From positions 1 through 64,000 of the forward strand of contig NZ_SHKI01000003.1 of NCBI RefSeq assembly GCF_004217175.1: 64,000 nt of DNA. Direction: 5' to 3'. Position numbers and translations under genes: made by a program. Within the stretch, counting starts at the first letter, position 1, and every line of letters begins with the position of its first letter. The stretch comes from Leucobacter luti (GTDB taxonomy: Bacteria > Actinomycetota > Actinomycetes > Actinomycetales > Microbacteriaceae). Shown here piece by piece: positions 14,102 through 34,356 of this stretch. The notes beneath the pieces were generated by a model. That model did no database searches. It was not told the DNA's origin and saw only the letters and a program-made list of their open reading frames with translations.

Positions 14102-14131
14102 GGGCGCGGCCGCGCGGCACCGCCCGGGCAA

Positions 14132-14223
14132 AGAAATACTCCCTACGTACCCGCTAGAGCCCGAGTACCCTTGCTTCGTTTCCGACCTGGGGGAGTTCCT
14201 CGAGATAGCGCCACGTAGGGAGC
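14132..14223 (-). ncRNA. ffs: Signal recognition particle RNA, small bacterial (4.5S) type
   Basis: Read on the minus strand, the segment contains CAGGTCGGAAACGAAGCAAG, the conserved Ffh-binding helix and loop of SRP RNA. The ends pair perfectly: CTCCCTACGT (14222-14213) with ACGTAGGGAG (14148-14139), giving the expected long hairpin with internal pairs such as CGAG/CTCG. The 3' end runs into TATTTCTTT, a T-rich termination tail. A -10-like TAGACT lies at 14235-14230, which would start transcription near 14223. The RNA is about 90 nt and, with Ffh, targets nascent membrane proteins. It sits just after the stop of the protease gene on the same strand. Confidence 0.88.
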
Positions 14224-14240
14224 GTTTCTAGTCTAGCGGA

Positions 14241-32317: not shown

Positions 32318-32905
32318 GTGACCGATCCGACTCCCGCTTACCTCGCCCGCATGGTCACCGATGGGACCGACCGCAATGCGTGGCTGCGCGCGCGAGCCCA
32401 GGGCATCACCGCGACCGACGTCGCGAAGCTCTCGACGCCGAAGTCGATCCAGAACGCCGCCCACGAAAAACTGCACGGCAGCCGCTTTTCGGGCAACGTC
32501 TACACCGACCACGGGAAGGCCCGCGAGCCCGAGATCGCCTCGTGGGTGCTCCGCGAGTACGGGATCCTGCCCAGCCAGGCGCTCTTCCACGCGGCAGCGG
32601 ACATGCGGCACCTCGCCACCCCCGACGGGCTCGCGCAGCGCCAGACGGGCGCGATCGAGCTGGCCGAGATCAAGACGACGAACAAGGAGTGGCGCACGAT
32701 CCCCCGCCACTACCTGCGCCAGGTGTGGTGGCAGCAGTACGTGCTGGGCGCCGAGCGCACCCTCATGGTGTGGGAGCGGCACGAGAACTTCGTCCCGGTT
32801 GGCGACCCGGAGTGCCGGTGGATCGACCGCGACGAGAACGAGATCGCGCACCTCGTGTCGCTCGCGAGCAACCTGATCGACGTGCTCATCGCTCGCACCA
32901 GCTAG
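32318..32905 (+). CDS. YqaJ-type recombinase/exonuclease-like protein
   Basis: The 195-residue protein matches the YqaJ/lambda-exonuclease-like nuclease fold: WLRARAQGITATDVAKL (the region around the first acidic loop), YTDHGKAREPEIASWVL, and the catalytic E-x-K strand IELAEIKTTN, followed by PRHYLRQVWWQQYVLGAERT with the conserved Gln/Tyr. Phage members digest double-stranded DNA ends for single-strand annealing, but here no RecT-like annealing protein, phage gene or integrase is nearby. Stand-alone copies are found in actinobacterial chromosomes. GGAGG lies 2 bases before the GTG, which is closer than usual; ATG at 32351 is an alternative start. A repeat-rich gap begins at its stop. Confidence 0.75.
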   Translation: MTDPTPAYLARMVTDGTDRNAWLRARAQGITATDVAKLSTPKSIQNAAHEKLHGSRFSGNVYTDHGKAREPEIASWVLREYGILPSQALFHAAADMRHLATPDGLAQRQTGAIELAEIKTTNKEWRTIPRHYLRQVWWQQYVLGAERTLMVWERHENFVPVGDPECRWIDRDENEIAHLVSLASNLIDVLIARTS

Positions 32906-32925
32906 CTGGCCCCGTGCGTGAGTTG

Positions 32926-33035
32926 GTGCGGGCGGCGGCGTGCGCTAGCTCGCTATCTTGTGCGGGCGGCTGCGCTGTGCGCTAGCTCGCTGGTGCGGGC
33001 GGCTGCGCTGTGCGCTAGCTGGTGCGGGCGTGCGC
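32926..33035. repeat. Tandem repeat, unit about 33 bases
   Basis: Units begin near 32926, 32959 and 32993 with GTGCGGGCGGC and contain TGCGCTAGCT. The second and third are nearly identical over about 28 bases; the first is diverged and a truncated fourth begins near 33023. Confidence 0.75.
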
Positions 33036-33132
33036 CGCCGTGCGCTGTGCCGCCATGCGCTGCCGTGCGCAGCCGTGCGCTGCGGCGCCAGCGCCATTCC
33101 GCGATCCGAGCCGTGCCCCCTCTTCCCCTTCC

Positions 33133-33212
33133 ACGAGCGTGCGGCTCCGTCTCGAGTGTGCGGCTCCGCACCGACAGTCAAGCCGCACGCTCGTCAACGA
33201 AGCCTCCACTCG
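33133..33212. repeat. 80-base hairpin repeat, copy 1
   Basis: The unit has two direct copies of a 14-base arm (33133-33146 and 33152-33165), a 15-base spacer, the inverted arm AGCCGCACGCTCGT (33181-33194) and an 18-base tail ending CCTCCACTCG. The first arm and the inverted arm are perfectly complementary; the second arm pairs with one G-T wobble and one end mismatch. A second copy lies 345 bases to the right. Confidence 0.85.
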
Positions 33213-33477
33213 CGGCGGGCGGGGGGCAGGATGGGGGGGGGGAGCGGCACGGGCGGGAGCGGACGCACGGCACGGCACAGCACAGCGCAGCGCAGCGCAG
33301 CGCAGCGCAGCGCGGACGCACAGCGGAGCGCGGCACGGTGCAGGGCGGACGGGACAGGGTGGGGCGGCGGGACGGGATCGGGGCGGCGCGGGCCGGGGCT
33401 CCTTGCCCGGGGCAGCGCCCATCACGCTCACCACCACGACCAAGCCCGACCCAACCCAACCCAGCCCAGCCCAGCTC

Positions 33478-33557
33478 ACGAGTGTGCGGCTCCGTCACGA
33501 GTGTGCGGCTCCGCACCGACAGTCAAGCCGCACACTCGTCGACGAAGCCTCCACTCG
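33478..33557. repeat. 80-base hairpin repeat, copy 2
   Basis: Same layout as the copy at 33133: arms 33478-33491 and 33497-33510 (identical to each other), inverted arm AGCCGCACACTCGT (33526-33539), then the 18-base tail. Only four of 80 bases differ from copy 1. Two of these, 33483 and 33534, are opposite one another in the stem and change a C:G pair to T:A. Confidence 0.85.
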
Positions 33558-33771
33558 TCGCGGGCTCGGAGGGCTCGAAGAGCGTGCGCGGCGGACGCAC
33601 GGCGCAGCGGACGCACAGCGCAGCGGGCACACGGCGCCGCGGGGCGCGGCAGGCGCGCGCAGACCTCGGGCCGCGGGCGCCACGAGCGCCGCGCCGCACC
33701 AGCGCGCCGCGCCAGCGCGCCCCGGCCCCGGCGCTCAGCGCGGCGCACGCACGCGCAGCCGCTCAGCACCG

Positions 33772-34356
33772 CTACGCGGGCGGGGCGGCGGGGAACGGCG
33801 GGAGGCCCGCGCTCGCCTGGTGCAAGCGACTCTCGTAGGCGAAGTTGCGCTCCACGAGCTCCTGCAGCGCCTCCGCGGTCTCGTCCGTACCCGGCACGTC
33901 GTCGAGGACCATCCGCTCGGCCCCGTGCAGCAGGTCGATGCTTCCCGTGCCCCACAGGCGCTGCCCGATACTGCGCCGCTGCCGCACCTCGCGGACGCGG
34001 GCGAGCGCGAGCTCCCAGCGGTGCCGCACGAACAGCCCGCGGCGCACGATCACGCGGCGCGAGGTGATCGTGGTGCGCCCGGCGAGCCACCCGAGGATCG
34101 GGAGCACCCCGAGCAGGAGCGCCACCAGTCCGGCGCCAGCGGCGGCCGCGAGGTTCATCCAGGCCTCGGGCAGCCGCCCCACCCAGAACCCGGCCGCAGC
34201 GGCGACCGCGATCAGGACGAGCGCCGGCAGCACGATCCGGCGGGCGTGCGCACGGAACCGCAGCACGACCACCTCGGGGTGTGCGTGACTGGCGGGGGCC
34301 GGTCCGAGCACGGAGTCGACCTCCGCCGTCATCGAGCGCGCGGAGCGGGGAACCAT
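33772..34356 (-). CDS. Bacterial PH-domain (DUF304-type) membrane protein
   Basis: The 194-residue protein has two membrane helices in its first half (about residues 42-60 and 67-91) followed by a bacterial PH-like domain: TTITSRRVIVRRGLF, WELALARVREVRQRRS, WGTGSIDLL and MVLDDVPGTDE. The TSRRVIVRRG strand pair and the glycine-rich SIDL turn are typical of the bPH2/DUF304 family. Function in these proteins is poorly known; some take part in envelope or membrane-domain organisation. Its start is 4 bases after the flotillin stop, so it is the last gene of an NfeD-flotillin-PH operon. Confidence 0.85.
   Translation of the reverse strand: MVPRSARSMTAEVDSVLGPAPASHAHPEVVVLRFRAHARRIVLPALVLIAVAAAAGFWVGRLPEAWMNLAAAAGAGLVALLLGVLPILGWLAGRTTITSRRVIVRRGLFVRHRWELALARVREVRQRRSIGQRLWGTGSIDLLHGAERMVLDDVPGTDETAEALQELVERNFAYESRLHQASAGLPPFPAAPPA

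Follow-up and report, generated by a model that had tools for sequence, protein, structure and literature searches.

Two interrupted palindromes between convergent genes

The window analyzed here is a 64,000-nt stretch of the Leucobacter luti genome. Within it, a YqaJ-domain gene (32318–32905, + strand; PF09588, E 6.6e-8) and a bacterial PH-domain gene (33772–34332, − strand; PF03703, E 8.3e-9) converge on an 866-bp intergenic region (32906–33771). This region contains two copies of an 84-nt palindromic unit, at 33132–33215 and 33477–33560, both on the + strand, with copy 1 in the orientation used for our alignment of genomic copies (A1, described below). The rest of the enlarged gap (33216–33476 and 33561–33771) is low-complexity DNA of the GCGCAG/GGAC type, and several other repeat-bearing gaps have a similar look. 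Both neighboring genes are syntenic in the genus. A PH match was found in 50 relatives, and in 26 of the 29 that were read the YqaJ and PH genes adjoin, separated by −4 to 291 bp in those 26 as against 866 bp here. A different palindrome, scoring at least 14, follows the PH gene in 4 of the 29. The initial annotation remarked on the YqaJ-type nuclease gene beside the repeat. The adjacency is correct, but a link between the two was rejected: the gene pair is syntenic in relatives, and a DNA search for the unit in 59 other genomes, of which 36 belong to the same genus, gave no match. The YqaJ and PH neighbors therefore look incidental to the repeat.

As annotated, the 80-nt segments at 33133–33212 and 33478–33557 differ at exactly four positions (copy 1/copy 2: C/T at 33138/33483, T/A at 33152/33497, G/A at 33189/33534, and A/G at 33196/33541), each copy holds a fully complementary 14-bp stem, and the left arm is duplicated. 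In copy 1, left arm 1 (ACGAGCGTGCGGCT, 33133–33146) forms this stem with the inner right arm (33181–33194); left arm 2 (CGAGTGTGCGGCT) lies at 33153–33165, and the outer right arm (33196–33213) was placed by alignment with copy 2. In copy 2, ACGAGTGTGCGGCT serves both as left arm 1 (33478–33491), complementary to the inner right arm at 33526–33539, and as left arm 2 (33497–33510), and the outer right arm occupies 33541–33558. All arms are given on the + strand, and 34 nt separate the two arms of the 14-bp stem in each copy. On both strands, 88 nt around each copy fold more stably than every one of 200 shuffled sequences, with z between −5.1 and −8.2, so the hairpin is not a product of chance. 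In the predicted minimum-energy fold, the inner stem joins the second left arm to the inner right arm, and left arm 1 pairs imperfectly with the outer right arm (33196–33213 or 33541–33558). Given this nested pairing of both left arms, the unit extends beyond the 14-bp stem and is best described as one interrupted four-arm hairpin of ~84 nt.

The statement that the element matches no recognized family stands, with no Rfam 15 match at gathering score at the repeat; an Rfam search at E ≤ 10 returned nine matches only, all far under gathering scores. The sole gathering-level Rfam match of the window is the bacterial small SRP RNA at 14131–14227 on the − strand (RF00169, 58.8 bits).

Copy number, sequence, and placement of the repeat

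Searched against its own genome, the 80-base unit proved to be one of a repeat family with at least 45 distinct sites. A covariance model (R1, built from 42 copies) identified at least 45 sites, on both strands, among the 79 matches listed at E ≤ 0.01, and a DNA search of the genome yielded 103 matches, again on both strands. There are 44 near-full copies, 42 of which were aligned (the L055 and L059:8244 copies were omitted); the 45th site, C5:261755, comes from the covariance model only. In the resulting gapless alignment A1 (42 copies, 92 columns), GAG-GTGCGGCT and its mirror are almost invariant and the termini are of the (C/G)ACGAG...CTCGTG type. The 13-mer CGAGYGTGCGGCT occurs 140 times in this genome, whereas none of 393 others from the class has more than 12 occurrences. 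At the end of contig C5 (L065, 9850–10043), a truncated repeat copy enters a long G run, which likely marks an assembly break at the repeat.

Beyond this genome, model R1 matched seven others, and inspection by eye found the double-arm build in five (G009, G447, G018, G016, and G023), with no clear picture in G027 and G451. A plasmid search by DNA gave no repeat match, and the inverted-head pattern ACGAGTG..CACTCGT showed no clear enrichment over a reversed control within the genus. A pattern search of a named genome collection returned four stretches, three mycobacterial and one from Subtercola, the last of which was set aside by eye as a coding repeat.

These copies bear on the proposal that the paired C:G to T:A difference between the two window copies is compensatory. 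At the pair columns 11/62 the 42 aligned copies carry T-G in 13 cases, C-G in 12, C-A in 10, T-A in 6, and T-C in 1, giving Watson-Crick pairs in 18 and other combinations in 24 (Fisher P 0.52, odds below 1). Other copies thus vary without keeping the pair, the outcome that the initial annotation had itself named as refuting, and the compensatory reading is not supported; what the copies show is a transition that toggles freely. In the same 42 copies the alternative inner pair, at columns 30/62, forms Watson-Crick pairs less often than expected (P 0.03), and for neither the nested nor the alternative structure did the number of paired cells or the covariation exceed that of 500 shuffles. The initial annotation had also taken the duplicated left arm, which permits two alternative 13–14-bp pairings, as a possible two-state switch. 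Left arm 1 has a partner of its own in the outer right arm, and the end of that arm is conserved, so this switch is left without positive support. With no covariation among 42 copies, repeats in both orientations relative to co-directional genes, and no matching Rfam family, we consider an RNA switch, or a structured regulatory RNA of another sort, exceedingly improbable, and compensatory pairing and switching were both discarded on the strength of the copy alignment.

All 44 near-full copies lie between genes called by a simple gene caller, in agreement with the annotated non-coding location. The repeat-bearing regions number 28: convergent genes flank 17 of them and co-directional genes the other 11, with no divergent case, a count that includes a gene in L049, from the AbiEi-like family described below, that the gene caller missed; 26 of the 44 copies sit in convergent regions. 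Set against 201 gaps without the repeat from these stretches, convergent regions are in excess (P 1.8e-6) and divergent regions deficient (P 0.002). Copies share one orientation in all 13 multi-copy regions, and for 28 of the 29 copies in such regions the closest relative is found within the same region. This combination of regional relatedness and uniform orientation indicates that local copying or conversion occurs.

The preference for convergent gaps and the great stability of the hairpin on both strands would suit bidirectional transcription terminators, or RNA-stabilizing hairpins, multiplied by gene conversion. Against this, copies inspected by eye together with 8 nt of flank show no T-run after the hairpin in either direction, single gaps hold two to three copies, the corresponding gap of relatives suffices at −4 to 291 bp, and no covariation preserves an RNA fold. 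We therefore judge this explanation improbable, and termination could be a side effect of the repeats.

The same placement recalls REP/REPIN elements of the ordinary kind, mobilized by a RAYT (Y1 tyrosine transposase); these are likewise extragenic, favor convergent or co-directional gaps, and form tandem clusters, as excerpts of the REP literature describe (PMC3733652, PMC3116915). However, Y1_Tnp (PF01797) has 0 matches in this genome, while a control search detected it in 5 of 14 named genomes, and no GTAG or CGTC foot is visible by eye in the 42 copies of A1. The CGTC class of REPs is itself said, in excerpted text, to lack a dedicated transposase (PMC3733652). RAYT is disfavored as mobilizer by the missing Y1_Tnp match, and we hold an origin as ordinary REP/REPIN elements to be very unlikely.

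The AbiEi-like gene family and its flanking palindromes

One cluster of three copies lies upstream of a 376-aa open reading frame at G000:C1:640,809–641,939, the copies ending 230, 436, and 707 bp before it. In this genome the family gene has repeat copies on its 5′ side only, and the chance that one of the two family genes present would lie so near one of the 28 clusters is about 0.03. No such repeat was found in the 5.2 kb read around the second homolog (C1:579,604). The flank of that homolog (L143, G000:C1:577500–582700) carries AGATCCGACCCG direct repeats and a different, perfect hairpin.

Of 54 genomes from the genus, its own included, 44 carry relatives of the family gene, as do 242 of 394 genomes of the class at E ≤ 1e-15, with up to five candidates scored per genome. 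The family is very common yet barely named in Pfam and NCBIfam. Alignment A2 comprises 42 of the 44 open reading frames read (L123 and L138 were omitted). PADLOC AbiEi models match all 42 members and Pfam AbiEi_4 matches 17 of them, each at E ≤ 0.1. A C-terminal block with invariant E, D, D-G, K-Y, and E..R positions can be read as Vsr/PD-(D/E)XK-like; for the 42 members, searches gave no Pfam nuclease model, nothing in NCBIfam, and chance-like PDB matches only. Among nine more distant homologs, two, both mycobacterial, match the MTES_1575-type Vsr REase domain (PF18741) moderately (E 3.9e-8 and 6.9e-8, under the Pfam cut-off), a third matches it at E 0.021, and DUF559 exceeds its cut-off in one of the two mycobacterial proteins. 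An alignment containing the MTES_1575-matching homologs is homologous to the A2 family over its whole length (hhalign E 2.3e-64), and the invariant E, D, and D-G positions are common to both alignments. MTES_1575 is described as a Vsr-type REase in excerpts of PMC3710099. From these sequence comparisons, the family consists of AbiEi-like proteins with a probable Vsr-type (MTES_1575/DUF559-like) nuclease end. No homologs of the family protein were found in viral contigs, plasmids, or phages.

Across genomes, palindromes built like the window unit, with two ~19-nt arms opposite two inverted ones, tend to flank family genes, often on both sides, as statistical comparison shows. From 50 congeneric loci, removal of four duplicates left 46 family genes, which were compared with 295 control genes from 20 random 20-kb stretches. 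A palindrome scoring at least 18 lies within 700 bp of 22 of the 46 family genes and of 28 of the 295 controls; the corresponding counts are 17 and 14 at a score of at least 20, and 30 and 62 at a score of at least 14, with the controls unmatched for intergenic length at every threshold. The 16 family genes without a palindrome of at least 14 within 700 bp include that of the own genome, whose copies score lower or lie farther away. The class search supplied 30 loci, all but one from outside the own genome, and 13 of them reach a score of at least 18, the gene ends being inexact at some contig-end loci. Several, among them L172, L178, and L192, have palindromes on both sides of the family gene with arm periods of ~19 nt. 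A double-arm self-match of at least 10/12 was found in 41 of 67 family-gene palindromes and in 2 of 37 control hairpins, counts in which gene ends are inexact where a contig end truncates the locus, as in L179 and some others.

The arm sequences are mostly particular to their family gene, which is likewise a statistical result. For the 70 of 75 unique genes with 300 nt on both sides, flank-to-flank similarity reaches at least 30 in 31; among control genes 6 of 178 do so, and among mismatched flank pairs 16 of 560. The mismatched pairs are the fairer comparison, since the control genes are unmatched for intergenic length. At a similarity of at least 20 the separation is less sharp (48 of 70, 51 of 178, and 140 of 560, respectively), and part of the high-scoring set consists of long alignments in coding or low-complexity sequence. 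Arm and protein similarity correlate with a Pearson coefficient of 0.19 (2 of 2000 permutations as high) and a Spearman coefficient of 0.05 (461 of 2000), with proteins read crudely, a weak sign of arm-protein coevolution that appears only among close pairs. Genomes of the genus hold up to seven family paralogs with differing arms. One 20-kb stretch of another species (L156, G017:C1:1500000–1519999) contains five palindromes scoring at least 16, at least two of which have ~19-nt double arms of quite different sequences, and this species may carry an amplified family of its own.

Two congeners, G023 and G034, have the family gene between two related palindromes and further dispersed palindrome sites, 11 in G023 and 4 in G034, some of them partial. 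They thus have the REPtron-like layout, in which a (here probable) nuclease gene stands between copies of its own repeat and further copies are dispersed; in the own genome the flanking is one-sided. The search for dispersed copies gave weak matches in G447 and none in three other genomes. Three mycobacterial genomes contain 46, 39, and 42 GTCGAGYGTGCG heads, with 2, 1, and 3 occurrences of a control pattern, and in all three a family gene match lies, by coordinates, within 300 bp of such heads. The chance expectation of this adjacency is ~0.04–0.05 per genome, with cluster counts estimated for two of the genomes. From 22 mycobacterial matches, 12 loci were fetched, and three of the 12 read (L203, L204, and L209) have heads, most homologs being without them. 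L204 and L209 share a neighbor, which from its translation we take to be the end of pknG, and may therefore represent one inherited locus. In Mycobacterium innocens (L068, 850–1033), tandem 20-bp GCGTCGAGCGTGCGGCTGTG-like units are followed by inverted units.

Could the palindromes instead be autoregulatory operators of an AbiEi-type protein, with the dispersed copies selected as regulatory or DNA-binding sites and never mobile? AbiEi binds paired 23-bp inverted repeats in its own promoters, according to excerpts of PMC7319586, many of our palindromes lie 50–400 bp upstream of the family gene, and the lack of the repeat at most mycobacterial homologs raises this explanation slightly. However, related palindromes also occur downstream of the family gene, none of the 28 repeat-bearing regions is a divergent gap of the kind that holds promoters, a poor fit for operators, and the local multiplication of co-oriented units resembles copying. 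On this evidence we regard operators as unlikely, if the least so of the alternatives weighed here.

A proposed gene-repeat partnership and its relation to known systems

We consider it probable, on balance, that the window units are dispersed intergenic REP-like palindromes in a REPtron-like partnership with an AbiEi-like gene encoding a probable Vsr-type nuclease. Among the features of the repeat that enter this reading, the copies, their conserved arms, their placement at gene ends, their co-oriented clustering, and the lack of a DNA match in relatives have been shown directly. The sites bound by AbiEi and by Rv2827c are inverted repeats of 23 bp, and the Rv2827c promoter contains four (excerpts of PMC7319586); by analogy the AbiEi part of the family protein would bind the arms as half-sites. 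The nuclease end may then nick or cut at the bound palindrome, and repair or replication of the cut could place new copies of the palindrome in gaps at gene ends, both close by and far away. The family gene and its palindromes would together form a REPtron-like unit, and the window copies would be non-autonomous offspring of the unit at G000:C1:640,020–641,939.

More tentatively, and with rather less confidence than in the partnership itself, we raise the possibility of a new actinobacterial class of repeat-mobilizing system, in which an AbiEi winged-helix/Vsr fusion would read four ~19-nt half-sites as a palindrome and copy that palindrome genome-wide. Arm sequences specific to each gene variant would then give rise to several rival repeat populations per genome, and the window repeat would be an amplified one. 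A search of freely readable articles, preprints excluded, that included the sequence word CGAGTGTGCG found no description of this gene-repeat link. In the excerpted text of PMC3733652 and the other papers cited here, REP-like repeats are linked with a single kind of enzyme, the RAYT/HUH transposases. If our proposal is true, a second, unrelated nuclease has palindromes of its own, and gene-repeat partnerships arose more than once. It would also provide a candidate role for a widespread AbiEi-like family and could account for the palindromes particular to single lineages that lie between genes of mycobacteria and other actinobacteria.

Among known systems, the likeness is to REP/REPIN-RAYT systems (REPtrons), as portrayed in excerpts of PMC3733652, PMC3116915, PMC8266576, and PMC6006769, with their dispersed extragenic palindromes, doublets as long hairpins, tandem clusters, and mainly convergent or co-directional placement. 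The REPtron layout, with the repeats of a nuclease gene on its two sides (PMC8266576, PMC6006769), also belongs to this likeness. The linked protein here, however, is AbiEi-like with a probable Vsr-type nuclease, whereas theirs is an HUH tyrosine transposase. The arms here are ~19 nt long and doubled, the GTAG/CGTC foot is missing, and a genome can hold up to seven paralogous genes whose arms differ. The AbiEi component of AbiE type IV toxin-antitoxin systems resembles the family in sequence and in its multiple inverted-repeat half-sites of similar length (excerpts of PMC7319586); unlike AbiEi, the family has an extra C-terminal nuclease-like block, and its repeats stand on both sides of many genes and are scattered over the genome. 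The MTES_1575 domain, by contrast, is part of a large HEPN fusion protein in the excerpted account of PMC3710099 and does not lie beside palindromic repeats there. Finally, short, non-coding, dispersed copies that may be fed by one gene resemble MITEs or other insertion-sequence derivatives, from which the unit described here differs in being one interrupted palindrome throughout.
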